From Bdellovibrio bacteriovorus HD100 (GTDB taxonomy: Bacteria > Bdellovibrionota > Bdellovibrionia > Bdellovibrionales > Bdellovibrionaceae), in assembly GCF_000196175.1 (NCBI RefSeq), contig NC_005363.1:248001-312000 (forward strand): DNA of 64,000 nucleotides, given 5' to 3'. Made by a program: the position numbers and the translations under genes. How positions within the stretch are numbered: the first letter of the stretch is position 1; every line of letters starts with the position of its first letter. Positions 6,423-12,826 of the stretch are shown here, piece after piece. The notes under the pieces were generated by a model. It had not been told where the DNA came from. It made no database searches and worked only from the letters and a program-made list of their open reading frames with translations.

Positions 6423-6839
6423 CTAGTCTTCGTCCTCATCCTCGTAATCGTCGTCTTCATCCTCATCATCGTCGTCGTCGTCGTCGTCATCATCTTCGTC
6501 TTCATCGTCCTCATCGGCTTCTTCATCAGCCTCGATGCGGATCAGCCAACCCTCTTCGTAAGGGTCTTCCATGATCAAAGATGGATCGTCGATAACCTGG
6601 GAGTTCACTTCCACCACAGTTCCGGCAACCGGAGTGTAGATGTCCAGTGGACCGTCATCAGTTTCAAGGGTTCCGATTACAACATCTTCTTCGACCTGTT
6701 CATTTTCTGCAGGAAGGTCCACAGAAGAAATGGATTCGAAGTCTTCAAGACCGTCTTCGTTGATACCGATAGTGATGAGTCCATCTTCCTTTCGGATCCA
6801 CAGATAGCCCATAAAATTTCTTACGTCGTCAGATGCCAT
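6423..6839 (-). CDS. GcvH-like lipoyl-domain protein lacking the lipoyl lysine, with acidic tail
   Basis: A 138-aa protein whose residues about 8-103 follow the glycine-cleavage H-protein fold, including LDIYTPVAGTVVEVN and EDPYEEGWLIRIE. In true GcvH a lysine lies four residues before DIY in the ESVKAASDIY motif and carries lipoate. Here the matching stretch is ETDDGPLDIY, so the lysine is replaced by Asp62. From about residue 104 to the end almost every residue is Asp or Glu. AAGGAAAG precedes the ATG. It lies 74 nt behind glnA in the same direction and ends at a strong terminator, so it is probably the third gene of a glnB-glnA operon. No other glycine-cleavage genes are present. A glycine-cleavage role is unlikely; the function is unknown. 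Confidence 0.75.
   Translation of the reverse strand: MASDDVRNFMGYLWIRKEDGLITIGINEDGLEDFESISSVDLPAENEQVEEDVVIGTLETDDGPLDIYTPVAGTVVEVNSQVIDDPSLIMEDPYEEGWLIRIEADEEADEDDEDEDDDDDDDDDDEDEDDDYEDEDED
6426..6533. repeat. Low-complexity trinucleotide tract (acidic tail)
   Basis: On the plus strand this stretch is built from tcg, tca and tct triplets, with an uninterrupted run of about six cgt units. It encodes the poly-Asp/Glu tail of the GcvH-like protein on the minus strand. Such tracts can change length by slippage. Confidence 0.8.
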
Positions 6840-6913
6840 ATTCTTTCCTTATCTAAAGCTGATCTAGTCCAGCGATGCGAGCAAGCCCGCATCGCCTCCT
6901 GCGCAAAAGCGCC

Positions 6914-8326
6914 TTAACAATCGTAGTACAAGTGGAACTCGTAGGGAACCGGTCTTTGTTGAACCGGACGCACTTCTTTGTCGATTTTGTACTGAACCCA
7001 GGTCTCGATCAAGTCATCAGTGAAAACATCGCCTTTTTTCAGGAAGCTGCAGTTTTTCATCAGGTGATTCAAGCTTTCTTCCAAAGTGCCCGGAACAGAA
7101 GGGATCGCCGCTGCTTCTTGTGGAGGCAGACCGTAGATGTCTTTGTCCAGTGGATCGCCCGGATTGATTTTGTTGATGATGCCGTCAAGACCCGCCATCA
7201 GGATGGCTGCTTCTGCCAGATAAATGTTGGCAGATGGATCTGGAGTACGGAACTCAATACGTTTTGCCTTCGGATTTGGACCGGAGTTCGGGATACGCAT
7301 TGCCGCAGACCGGTTTTTGAAGCTGTAAGCCAGCTTGGTCGGAGCTTCAAAGCCCGGAACCAGACGCTTGTAAGAGTTGGTTGTCGGGTTGATGATACCG
7401 CAAAGAGCCGGAGCGTGTTTCAAAACGCCACCGATATAGTGCAAAGCCATTTCAGAAAGGCCTGCGTATTTGTTGCCGGCAAACAGGTTTTTTCCATCTT
7501 TCCACAGGGACATATGGATGTGCATGCCGGAACCGTTGTCGCCGAAGATCGGTTTTGGCATGAAGGTCACGGTTTTACCGTAGCGTTTTGCCACGTTTTT
7601 CACGATGTATTTGAACCACATCATTTTGTCGCCCATGTTCAGAGCGGTGTCGAAGCGGAAGTTGATCTCCCCCTGGCTGGAAGCGACTTCGTGGTGATGA
7701 CGTTCCACTTGCATGCCGCATCTTTCAAGCTCAAGGCAGATTTCGGTTCTTAGATCCTGCTGGGAATCTGTCGGCAGAGCCGGGAAGTAACCCTCTTTCG
7801 GACGGATTTTGTAACCCAGATTTTTGCCACCTTCGTCGCGTCCGGTGTTCCAGACAGCTTCGTCACTGTCGATCATATAGAAGGCCGAGTTGTTGGTTTG
7901 TTCGTAACGGATGTCATCAAAGATGAAGAACTCCGCTTCCGGACCGAAGTAAGCCGTGTCAGCAATGCCGGTGGACTGCATATAAGCGATGGCTTTTTTC
8001 ACCACTTGGCGAGGGTCACGGTTGTAGGCTTGAAGTGTTTCAGGAAGGCAGACATCGCAGATCAAAGACAATGTTGGAACCTGCATGAACGGGTCCATCA
8101 TCGCTGTGGAAGGATCCGGCATGATGATCATGTCTGACTCTTCGATCCCTTTCCATCCGCGGATCGAGCTTCCGTCAAAGCCGTAGCCTTCTTCAAAAGC
8201 TTCAGCAGTCAGTTGGTGCAAAGGCACAGTCAGGTGCTGCCAAGTTCCAAGCATATCGCAGAACTTCAGATCCACCATTTTCGCGCCTTTTTCATTGGCG
8301 AACTTCAATACATCTTTACCGGTCAT
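6914..8326 (-). CDS. glnA: Glutamine synthetase, type I
   Basis: ATP-dependent ligation of ammonia to glutamate, the main ammonium-assimilation step; a cytoplasmic dodecamer. The 470-aa length fits GSI. Visible signatures are [12 protein letters not shown] in the N-terminal beta-grasp part, the metal and ATP-site stretch [29 protein letters not shown] for glutamate binding, and [14 protein letters not shown]. The tyrosine in [12 protein letters not shown] corresponds to the adenylylation site of the GSI-beta subclass, so it could be controlled by GlnE. GGGAGG lies just before the ATG. It sits 31 nt behind glnB, the PII regulator, matching the common glnBA arrangement. Confidence 0.98.
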
Positions 8327-8357: not shown

Positions 8358-8696
<339 letters not shown>

Positions 8697-8948: not shown

Positions 8949-9551
8949 ATGACTACAACGCGTTTTTTCGTATACGGTTCTTTTTGCGAGGGCATGGTCC
9001 ATTTCAGCAAGATCCAGAATTTCGTGGAATCTTCAGTATTTGCAAGGGTTAAGGCGACTGCCTACCGCTTGAAAGTGGGCTTCCCGGCGGTGGTCAAAGG
9101 GGGATCTGACCTGGTTCCGGGGCAACTGATTGAACTTAAGGGATCCGATCTATTGTTGAGCCTGATGGATGAGTTCCACGGCTACAACCGCATGGATCCC
9201 GACAAGAGCCTTTACTCCAGAGAAGAGATCGAAGTGCACCCGGAAGGCATGTCTGCTCCGGTGAAAGCTTGGATCTACTTCCTGAATCCTCTGAAGCTGC
9301 CGGTGAATGCCACGGTGATTTCAGGCGGCGACTGGAGACGCTCCATGGAAGAACAGCCGGTGCTGACTTCCAAACTGAGTGAAAAACAGGTTACCTATAT
9401 TCAGAGACTGGGTCGCTCCTCTGGCCGGGAGATCGTACCGATTGATTTGACGCTCTATCGTGAGCTGATGAATCTTGAGCTGATCGTCGATAAAGGTCGT
9501 CGACTGGCGCTGTCTAAACTGGGCCAAGAGGTTTACAGACACCTTGCCTAA
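8949..9551 (+). CDS. Gamma-glutamylcyclotransferase-like (AIG2/GGCT) protein
   Basis: A 200-aa protein starting MTTTRFFVYGSFCEGM, which carries the YGS phosphate-binding-like loop of the GGCT/AIG2 fold. LLSLMDEFHGYNRMDPDKSLYSREEIEV corresponds to the family's L-D-x-E-G-Y...Y-R segment. Family members release 5-oxoproline from gamma-glutamyl compounds, but the catalytic Glu seems to fall within DEFHGY and should be checked. About 80 further C-terminal residues are not typical of a bare GGCT domain. An in-frame upstream ATG at 8766 would add 61 atypical residues, so ATG 8949, behind a G-rich sequence, is preferred. It overlaps trmL by 8 nt. Confidence 0.65.
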   Translation: MTTTRFFVYGSFCEGMVHFSKIQNFVESSVFARVKATAYRLKVGFPAVVKGGSDLVPGQLIELKGSDLLLSLMDEFHGYNRMDPDKSLYSREEIEVHPEGMSAPVKAWIYFLNPLKLPVNATVISGGDWRRSMEEQPVLTSKLSEKQVTYIQRLGRSSGREIVPIDLTLYRELMNLELIVDKGRRLALSKLGQEVYRHLA

Positions 9552-10026
9552 TACAGAAAAGCTTTTCCGCATTGTTCTTATCGAGCCCGAAATCCCGCAA
9601 AACACCGGAAATATCGGGCGCACGTGTGTTGGCACCAACTGCGAACTGCACATTGTGGGAAAAATGGGCTTTGAAATCAACGACACCAATCTGAAGCGGG
9701 CGGGGCTGGATTACTGGCCTCACCTGACGTGGTATCGCCACGAAACCTTCGAGGACTGGTGGAAACACGTTGAAGATCCGTCCCGCATCTGGCTTTTCAC
9801 CACCAAGACCCAGCGCACCTATTTTGAGCCCCAATATCAATCCGGAGACTGGTTCGTTTTTGGTAAAGAAACCAAAGGACTGGATCCCGAGTTCCTGCAA
9901 AAGCACCCACAGCAGACCGTCACCATCCCCATGATTGGGGAGGGGGCTCGCAGCCTGAATCTCGCCACCAGTGTGGCGATCGCGGCTTATGAGGGTCTTC
10001 GTCAGGTGCGATTTACATTGCGATAG
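9544..10026 (+). CDS. trmL: tRNA (cytidine/uridine-34-2'-O)-methyltransferase
   Basis: SPOUT-class methyltransferase of 160 aa that 2'-O-methylates the wobble base of tRNA-Leu isoacceptors using S-adenosylmethionine. Motif 1 is PEIPQNTGNIGRTC near the N-terminus. The knot motifs are FVFGKETKGLD and IPMIGEGARSLNLATSVAIAAYE. Length matches TrmL (about 157 aa). No ATG lies ahead of motif 1, so the TTG at 9544 is the likely start. It overlaps the stop of the GGCT-like gene, implying translational coupling. Confidence 0.92.
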   Translation: MPNTEKLFRIVLIEPEIPQNTGNIGRTCVGTNCELHIVGKMGFEINDTNLKRAGLDYWPHLTWYRHETFEDWWKHVEDPSRIWLFTTKTQRTYFEPQYQSGDWFVFGKETKGLDPEFLQKHPQQTVTIPMIGEGARSLNLATSVAIAAYEGLRQVRFTLR

Positions 10027-10156: not shown

Positions 10157-12826
10157 ATGGTTACACAAATTTTGACAAAAATGTTCGGAACGAAGCACGA
10201 CCGTGAGATGAAAAAGATCCAGCCCACCGTGGATCGTATCAATGCCCTGGAACCTCAGATGGCAGCCCTTACGGATGATCAACTCAAAGCCAAAACTCCT
10301 GAGTTTCAAGAGAGACTGAAGAAGGGCGAAACAGTTCACGATATCCTGCCGGAAGCATTCGCGGTTTGCCGTGAAGCCTCCAAGCGTGTGTTGGGAATGC
10401 GCCACTATGACGTTCAGTTGATCGGTGGTTATGTTCTGAATCGCGGCAACATCGCCGAGATGAGAACGGGTGAAGGTAAAACCCTGGTGGCGACTTTGCC
10501 GGTTTACCTGAATGCTCTTACGGGCCGCGGTGTTCACGTTGTGACTGTGAATGACTATCTGGTTCGTCGTGATGCTGAGCACATGGGTCGTCTTTATGGC
10601 TGGCTGGGTCTTACCACGGGTATCATCGTTCACGGTCTGACAGATCAGCAGCGCAAACAGATGTACGCTTGTGACATCACTTATTGCACCAACAATGAAC
10701 TTGGTTTCGACTATCTTCGCGACAACATGAAGTTTGATTTGAACGACTATGTTCAAAGACCTCACTATTATGCCATCGTCGATGAGTGCGACTCCATCCT
10801 GGTCGATGAAGCGCGTACGCCGCTGATCATTTCCGGTCCTGCGGAATCCTCCACTGACAAATACTATGCTGTGAATCAGATCATCCCGCACCTGAAGCGC
10901 GATGTTCACTTCACCATGGAGGAAAAATCCAAAACAGCCTCCCTGACTGACGCCGGAAACGCGAAAGTCGAAGAGCTGATGGGACTTTCCAATCTTTATG
11001 ATCCACAAAACATCGAGATCCTGCACCACGTGTATCAGGGCCTGAAAGCTCACTATCTGTATCGTCTTGATGTGGAATACATGATCAAAGACGGCGAGAT
11101 CGTGATCGTCGATGAATTCACCGGACGTTTGATGCCAGGTCGTCGCTGGAGCGATGGTCTGCACCAGGCGATTGAAGCCAAAGAAGGCGTTGAAGTGAAG
11201 TCTGAGAATCAGACTTTGGCGACCATCACCTTCCAGAACTATTTCCGTATGTACGAAAAACTGTCTGGTATGACCGGTACGGCAGATACTGAAGCGGTGG
11301 AGTTCAAGAAAATCTACAATCTTGAAGTGAACGTGATTCCGACCAACCGTCCGATCCAGCGTAAAGATCAGGAAGACGTGGTCTACAAATCAGAAAAAGC
11401 GAAATTCAAAGCCATCACCGCCGACATCAAAGAGCGTATGGCCAAGGGTCAGCCGATTCTGGTGGGTACTGAATCCATCGAAAAATCCGAAGCTTTGAGT
11501 GCGTTCCTGCGCAAAGAGGGTGTTAAGCACGAAGTTCTGAATGCAAAACACCACGAACGTGAAGCGGAAATCATCGCGCAGGCGGGCCGCAAAGGGGCTG
11601 TGACCATCGCCACCAATATGGCGGGTCGTGGTACTGACATCATGCTGGGCGGTAACGCTGACATGCTGGCAAAAGCTCAGGTGGGCAATGATGATTCTCC
11701 GGAATTCGCGGAAGCGGTTCAGAAAATCAAACCTCAGGTTGAAGCCGAGCGTGCGGAAGTTCGCTCTGTGGGTGGTTTGTACATTATCGGTACTGAACGT
11801 CACGAATCTCGCCGTATCGACAACCAGCTGCGGGGTCGTTCCGGTCGTCAAGGGGATCCGGGTGAATCCAGATTCTATCTGTCTTTGGAAGACAAACTGA
11901 TGAGAATCTTCAACGGTGAGCGCATCCAGAAGATCATGGAAATGCTGAACATCCCTGAAGATGAACCAATCACAGCTAAAATGGTGACCAACGCGATCGA
12001 AGGCGCTCAACGCAAGGTCGAAGGTCACAACTTTGATATCCGTAAAAACCTGATGGAATACGACTCTGTGATGAATGCGCAGAGAAACGCCATCTACGGC
12101 ATGCGCCGCAAGGTTCTGGAGGGTCAGGAAATCGAAAGAACCACTTTGGACTGGCTTGGTGATGTTGTTTCCAATCTGCTGGATACGCACATCCCTGAAG
12201 GTGGAAAAAAAGAAGAGTGGAGCCTGGAAGGCCTGAACAACTCTCTGGCACAAAGCTTCGGTTTCAAAATCGACTTTGCGACCATGGCGGTGAACACCGA
12301 GACGGTCACGGACGCGGTGAAGTCCGGTGTGAAGGAAGTTTGGGAACGTCAGAAAAATTCCATGGGTCCGTTCTTTGAACAGGTTCAGAAGATGATCCTT
12401 CTTCAAAGCATCGATCACCACTGGAAGAACCACTTGTACGTGATCGACAAACTGAAAGAGGGTATCTCTTTGCGCGGTTACGCACAGAAAGACCCTTTGA
12501 TCGAGTACAAAAAAGAGGCGTTCAAAGCCTTTGAAACTTTGAACAACACCATCAAGTCTGATGCGATCGAAAAAGTGATGCGCGTTCAGCTGGTGGCTCA
12601 GCAAAACGAGCAGGAAGTTTTGGAAAGCCTGCGTCCGGAAGAAGCGGACCTGGATGAGTTGGATTATTCATCTCCTAGCGAAGCGGACATCGGTCACAGT
12701 ATTCCTGAGACTTCTGAAGATGCTCCAAAGCGCAAGATGACCTTCCAAAGCGGCCCGCGTGATGATCGTCCCATGAACCGCGAAGAGCGTCGTCGTATGG
12801 ACAAAGACACGAAGGGAAAAAGATAA
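10157..12826 (+). CDS. secA: Preprotein translocase ATPase SecA
   Basis: Motor of the Sec export pathway that drives unfolded preproteins through SecYEG. Domains in order: NBD1 with Walker [12 protein letters not shown] and DEAD-type box [16 protein letters not shown], the preprotein cross-linking domain, NBD2 with [15 protein letters not shown] and [11 protein letters not shown], then the helical scaffold and wing. The 889-aa length is normal. It ends [12 protein letters not shown] and lacks the C-terminal Cys-X-Cys...Cys-His metal-binding domain that many proteobacterial SecAs have. The next gene, which encodes a zinc ribbon, follows the TAA directly and in the same frame. The 130 nt upstream must hold the promoter, but none is clear. 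Confidence 0.98.

Follow-up and report, generated by a model that had tools for sequence, protein, structure and literature searches.

The locus

In the window (the whole stretch of DNA analysed, 64,000 nucleotides of the Bdellovibrio bacteriovorus HD100 genome) gene X occupies 6423..6839 of the minus strand. It begins at an ATG with an AAGGA-type ribosome-binding site and encodes a protein of 138 amino acids with a GcvH fold, an aspartate (Asp62) in place of the lipoyl lysine and an acidic tail. On the minus strand the order is glnB–glnA–X. Profile matches identify glnB (8358..8696) as the gene of a PII protein and glnA (6914..8326) as that of a type I glutamine synthetase (GSI); the gaps are 31 bp between glnB and glnA and 74 bp between glnA and X. 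The sole T-run terminator found in this array, a terminator-like hairpin with its T-run reading from 6407 to 6382 on the minus strand, lies behind X. Thus the three genes are co-directional and end on one terminator, as an earlier note on this DNA had described. We found in addition a strong hairpin without a T-run in the gap between glnA and X (~6872..6896, minus strand). Because of this hairpin, co-transcription of glnA and X can be called likely at most.

On the plus strand lie a divergent gene for a gamma-glutamylcyclotransferase of the AIG2-like type (GGCT; 8949..9551), a trmL-like tRNA methyltransferase gene (9544..10026) and secA (10157..12826), the last identified from sequence. This cluster of neighbours recurs in most relatives, and GGCT is the steadiest neighbour of X.

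A GcvH paralogue without its lipoyl lysine

GcvH, the H-protein of glycine cleavage, is the textbook case of a protein working solely through its lipoyl lysine. What stands at this site in X? When X is aligned with the GcvH of the same genome, Asp62 falls opposite the lipoyl lysine (ETDD-GPLDIY versus ESVK-AVSDLY), confirming the assignment in the earlier note. The hairpin ETDDGPLDIY (residues 59–68; 6636..6665, minus strand) thus replaces the lipoyl-lysine turn ESVKAVSDLY. The single lysine of the protein, K17, is distant from the hairpin, and X contains neither cysteine nor histidine.

The homology to GcvH is clear, with 82 bits against Pfam GCV_H (PF01597; cut-off 22.2) and Foldseek E values of 1e-8 to 1e-9. 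However, at 72.2 bits X falls under the curated cut-off of 115.85 of TIGR00527, the GcvH equivalog, and unlike GcvH it is acid-tailed and lies outside the gcv locus. The canonical GcvH gene (L001; G000:C1:632731-633087) adjoins a gcvT-like gene at 633 kb and gcvP is found at 643 kb, while X, at C1:254.5 kb, is unlinked to gcvT/gcvP.

Does X belong to one of the known families of GcvH-like proteins? GcvH-L of Firmicutes works by lipoylation with macrodomain and sirtuin partners. Its fold is GcvH-like, and the structure 5a35 matches X with a TMq of 0.61, but X has no lysine at the site and no macrodomain or sirtuin neighbours. Two NCBIfam models, TIGR03077 (not_gcvH) and NF045810 (GcvH_rel_desulf), are named as non-GcvH relatives of GcvH; against these X scores 46 bits (cut-off 144) and 45 bits (cut-off 150), respectively, and is a member of neither. 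The lipoate-binding proteins LbpA of sulfur oxidation are, like X, GcvH-fold paralogues outside glycine cleavage. They retain the lysine in 95 of 95 sequences and mostly two conserved cysteines (PMC6067878); X, with no cysteine and no lysine at the site, is not an LbpA. Searches of the open literature, Bdellovibrio transcriptomes and proteomes included and subscription papers mostly outside their scope, returned no description of X.

The fold itself was modelled with AlphaFold2 from the sequences of 28 orthologues. The core (residues 1–104; 6528..6839, minus strand) is predicted confidently, at a block-mean pLDDT of 89–94 over residues 11–100; residues 111–138 of the tail, at ~52–56, are predicted to be disordered. 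In a Foldseek search of the PDB with X, 22 matches were obtained at E <= 0.001 and every one is a GcvH-type chain (24–35% identity, TMq 0.61–0.71 but mostly ~0.70, rmsd mostly 1.2–1.7). A profile search of PDB sequences agrees. The model indicates that X retains the H-protein fold.

Conservation across the order

We searched 60 genomes, the window's own and 59 relatives reaching into other families of the order. X was found in 55 of them, and a separate canonical GcvH is present in nearly all. The earlier note had proposed that the loss of the lysine, the acidic tail and the linkage to glnA be followed among homologues. The three traits behave differently: the loss of the lysine is complete, the tail is general in the family of X (f1) and short in several other relatives, and the linkage holds where both genes occur without being universal. 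No orthologue among the 55 keeps a lysine at the lipoyl site; most have Asp there, the others Gln, Glu, Ser, Gly or Asn.

Is the altered site simply decaying? The 28 sequences of f1 share a mean column identity of 63% and 20 invariant positions, among which are W14, T23, G25, N27, E59, T60, G63, L65, D66, P70, G73, E77, N79 and W98. Six of these (E59, T60, G63, L65, D66 and P70) sit in or beside the changed hairpin, the tip of which is among the best-conserved parts of the protein; hence the site has not decayed. The dN/dS of the core is ~0.02–0.11, by a rough Nei–Gojobori estimate in which dS is high for distant pairs. Judged by these comparisons, purifying selection acts strongly on the core, and X is a genuine, conserved protein and not a pseudogene.

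The acidic tail

The earlier note had observed that nearly all residues from about 104 onwards are Asp or Glu. The count is 32 of 34 in residues 105–138 (6426..6527, minus strand). In all, 59 of the 138 residues of X are acidic, giving a net charge of -55 for the whole protein and of -23 for residues 1–104.

A run of at least 12 consecutive GAN codons occurs in the 3.78-Mb genome only in X and in a non-coding (GAA)n microsatellite, a long one outside the window (L115; G000:C1:1693950-1694005). In 50 tails, comprising 1600 codons, 86% of the codons are GAN, with third bases T, C, A and G in the numbers 432, 432, 349 and 156. Since the third bases are mixed, it is the acidity and not a DNA repeat that is conserved. 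The third-base mix and the genome-wide search for GAN runs together dispose of an origin of the tail by chance or by repeat slippage.

Tail length differs among strains. Outside f1 an acidic tail is found in part of the relatives (L068, L074, L077, L082 and L083), and in several others of the order the tail is short, 17–23 residues, of which just 30–50% are acidic. Since the tail is not universal in the order, the function of X cannot reside in it alone.

Relatives beyond the order

Related proteins were found in the class of G177, which contains Candidatus Adiutrix and other deltaproteobacterial metagenome-assembled genomes (MAGs), and which we call Desulfobacterota-type by name. Of the 63 genomes in this class, about 25 encode a GcvH-like protein with GRG-, GSG- or GKG-type hairpins instead of ESVK, and tails of 43–74 residues that are 56–68% Asp/Glu. 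A few, some with GKG-type hairpins, have a lysine in the aligned column, but within an unrelated motif. The genes lie beside lgt, cobS or an isocitrate-dehydrogenase-like gene, and not beside nitrogen genes. GcvP is absent from 11 of 11 genomes tested in this class and present in five of five Bdellovibrionales tested; in three genomes tested from the class the altered form is the only GcvH-like gene, absence being somewhat doubtful in MAGs in both instances.

In trees, the GcvHs that bear the lysine form one group across the two phyla, separate from the altered forms, with a support of 93 (84 without the hairpin columns). X is monophyletic with a support of 96 (85 without these columns), and it joins the Desulfobacterota-type group at 71–72, which weakly suggests a single origin of the two.

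Other GcvH paralogues were encountered in the same phylum outside the order. Their hairpins are changed, and the lysine is kept in some and not in others. Those at L150-L156 (L150, L153 and others belong to one family) have a hairpin of the EGEK, EGAK or EGSK type with the lysine at the aligned place, and from their sequences these are possible intermediates. The lysine-bearing forms beyond the order, whether of the EGEK/EGAK type or among the GKG-type hairpins, may be lipoylated; as a probe of lipoylation capacity the LIAS_N profile was uninformative, giving no match even in the window's own genome. In other families of the phylum, lysine-less GcvH-like genes lie directly upstream of, or overlap, a HisKA histidine kinase gene (L158-L166), an arrangement that suggests a signalling partner; these altered paralogues do not group with X in the trees. 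Lastly, four genomes (G002, G016, G019 and G044) carry a second GcvH paralogue (L089-L092) with SVKN, SVRQ, SILK or SVKF at the lipoyl site, near a gene for a Fur-family regulator in L089 and L092 and adjoining a methyltransferase-like gene in L090-L092. Their sequences perhaps represent another lineage that is losing its lysine.

The neighbourhood of X

How constant is the association of X with nitrogen genes? Of the 60 genomes, 55 have X, 42 have type I GlnA and 39 have PII. X and glnA are both present in 38; in 34 of these, which span several families of the order, X lies less than 200 bp downstream of glnA and is read in the same direction. On the other hand, X is retained without type I GlnA in 17 of its 55 genomes and without PII in 20, and four genomes possess GlnA and PII yet have no X. 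Over the 60 genomes the presence of X and that of GSI are not associated (Fisher p = 1). The gap between glnA and X contains terminator-like hairpins with T-runs in some genera (L066, L070 and L072); in many other genomes it measures 9–40 bp.

GGCT, followed by trmL and secA, forms a steadier block of neighbours than glnBA. X and GGCT are divergent in all 46 genomes where both were found, 154–628 bp apart where glnBA is missing and mostly ~2 kb apart where glnBA intervenes. Since regional gene order is generally stable, we did not take this co-occurrence as a functional link. The simplest history would be an ancestral arrangement with ggct facing away from glnB–glnA–X, followed by repeated losses of glnBA that left X in place. 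At L075, L077, L080, L084 and L086, loci from several families of the order without glnBA at that place, X is convergent with a spoVR–yeaH–prkA cluster.

In one genome, G030, which is without GSI and PII, a type III glutamine synthetase gene begins 105 bp downstream of X in the same orientation (L065:1551-3767, minus strand). The product has 738 amino acids with GSIII_N, Gln-synt_C and C-terminal domains, and no terminator was found between the two genes. The arrangement has the appearance of an in-place, non-orthologous replacement of the missing glnB and type I glnA. Among the 17 genomes without GSI, 16 have a weak match in an open frame of 640–763 amino acids, the size expected of type III, one of them confirmed by Pfam. 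Type I GlnA and PII have been lost together repeatedly in the Bdellovibrionales (G025, G027, G028, G032, G037, G043, G049, G054 and others), leaving the type III-like synthetase of 640–763 amino acids alone. In G012, G026 and G031 GlnA is kept and PII was not detected.

What might X do?

We consider, with middling confidence, that X, a GcvH paralogue, no longer bears lipoic acid and persists as a binding protein in its own right, acting through its hairpin tip and its acidic tail. The reading draws on the predicted fold, the order-wide loss of the lysine, the fixed tip, the acidity conserved in the family and the retention of X without GSI or PII, as well as that of its second-phylum relatives without GcvP. 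The swinging lipoyl arm of GcvH is borne on the hairpin, which brings it into the partner enzymes. In X the hairpin would instead be a fixed acidic, Gly–Pro tip that most likely touches another protein, and the disordered tail would contribute electrostatic attraction towards a basic surface or bound metal. On this view X would serve as an adaptor or inhibitor and would carry no chemistry itself. The earlier suggestion of a repurposed lipoyl-domain protein is well supported by the absence of the lysine from all 55 orthologues, the low dN/dS, the conserved tip and the presence of a canonical GcvH and of GcvP elsewhere.

What might the partner be? The earlier note tied X to nitrogen metabolism and possibly to GlnA itself. 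The 60-genome table, in which X persists without either, excludes type I GlnA and PII as dedicated, obligate partners; glutamine synthetase of one type or another is still a candidate. Hence it is possible, though we think it unlikely, that X regulates glutamine synthetase, binding GlnA or any type of the enzyme encoded in the same operon. The cyanobacterial proteins IF7 and IF17 are inactivating factors of glutamine synthetase. X, being small and encoded beside glnA, resembles these and the proteins GlnR and GlnK1, all of them small and encoded beside the synthetase or controlling it. It differs from all four in having no detected sequence relation to them and in persisting without type I GlnA and PII. 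Control of the synthetase by a bound protein has its precedent in GlnR and GlnK1, both described as protein regulators of the enzyme (PMC9249791 and PMC10651883). The close linkage to glnA in 34 of 38 genomes speaks for such a role, as does the type III gene behind X in G030; by our own estimate, such an adjacency would arise by chance in one of ~16 genomes with a probability of ~1%. Against it stand the 17 GSI-less genomes that keep X, with the type III-like enzyme elsewhere in ~15 of them, and the four that have GSI and PII but no X. Moreover, terminator-like hairpins interrupt the glnA–X gap in some genera, the relatives in the second phylum lie away from gln genes, and the genome also encodes GlnE, so that the usual control of the synthetase is already present.

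A broader proposal, which we regard as speculative and rather doubtful, is that of a hyperacidic, non-lipoylated GcvH-fold family for signalling or adaptor functions, extending over two phyla, whose member in Bdellovibrio would bind whichever glutamine synthetase is present and control it separately from PII and GlnE.

Could X be a dead mimic of a substrate? It would bind LipA, LipB or lipoate ligase, or else GcvT or GcvP, and interfere with, or scaffold, lipoylation or glycine cleavage. X has retained the fold that these enzymes recognise, human LIAS–H-protein complexes are among its top structural matches, and those Bdellovibrionales genomes that were tested possess a canonical GcvH together with GcvP. 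Yet the very hairpin that would make the contact is altered in a fixed manner, X is unlinked to gcv genes and the relatives in the second phylum occur in genomes that, in 11 of 11 tested, are without GcvP. We judge the mimic improbable. Still more improbable, to our minds, is a buffer or chaperone of cations in which the tail binds Mg2+, Mn2+ or Ca2+, for example for a metal-dependent synthetase. A net charge of -55, with 59 acidic residues in 138, would suit such a protein, but the universal part of X is its core and not its tail, many relatives being short-tailed, and no known metal-binding motif was seen in its sequence. That X is a decaying copy of GcvH with slipped (GAN)n repeats, as the lost attachment site and the strain-variable tail might suggest, is scarcely credible and is refuted by a dN/dS of ~0.02–0.11, an invariant core, mixed third bases in a tail that is 86% GAN and a distribution over 55 of 60 genomes.

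We return to X as a stand-alone binding protein. As far as the sequences tell, the combination of a lost lysine and an acidic tail recurs in another bacterial phylum. Proteins of this kind are probably annotated automatically as "glycine cleavage system protein H", which misleads metabolic reconstructions. If our preferred reading is true, a strongly conserved, lineage-wide branch that lost the lysine, fixed another hairpin and acquired a disordered Asp/Glu tail shows that the H-protein fold can be converted into a pure binding module.
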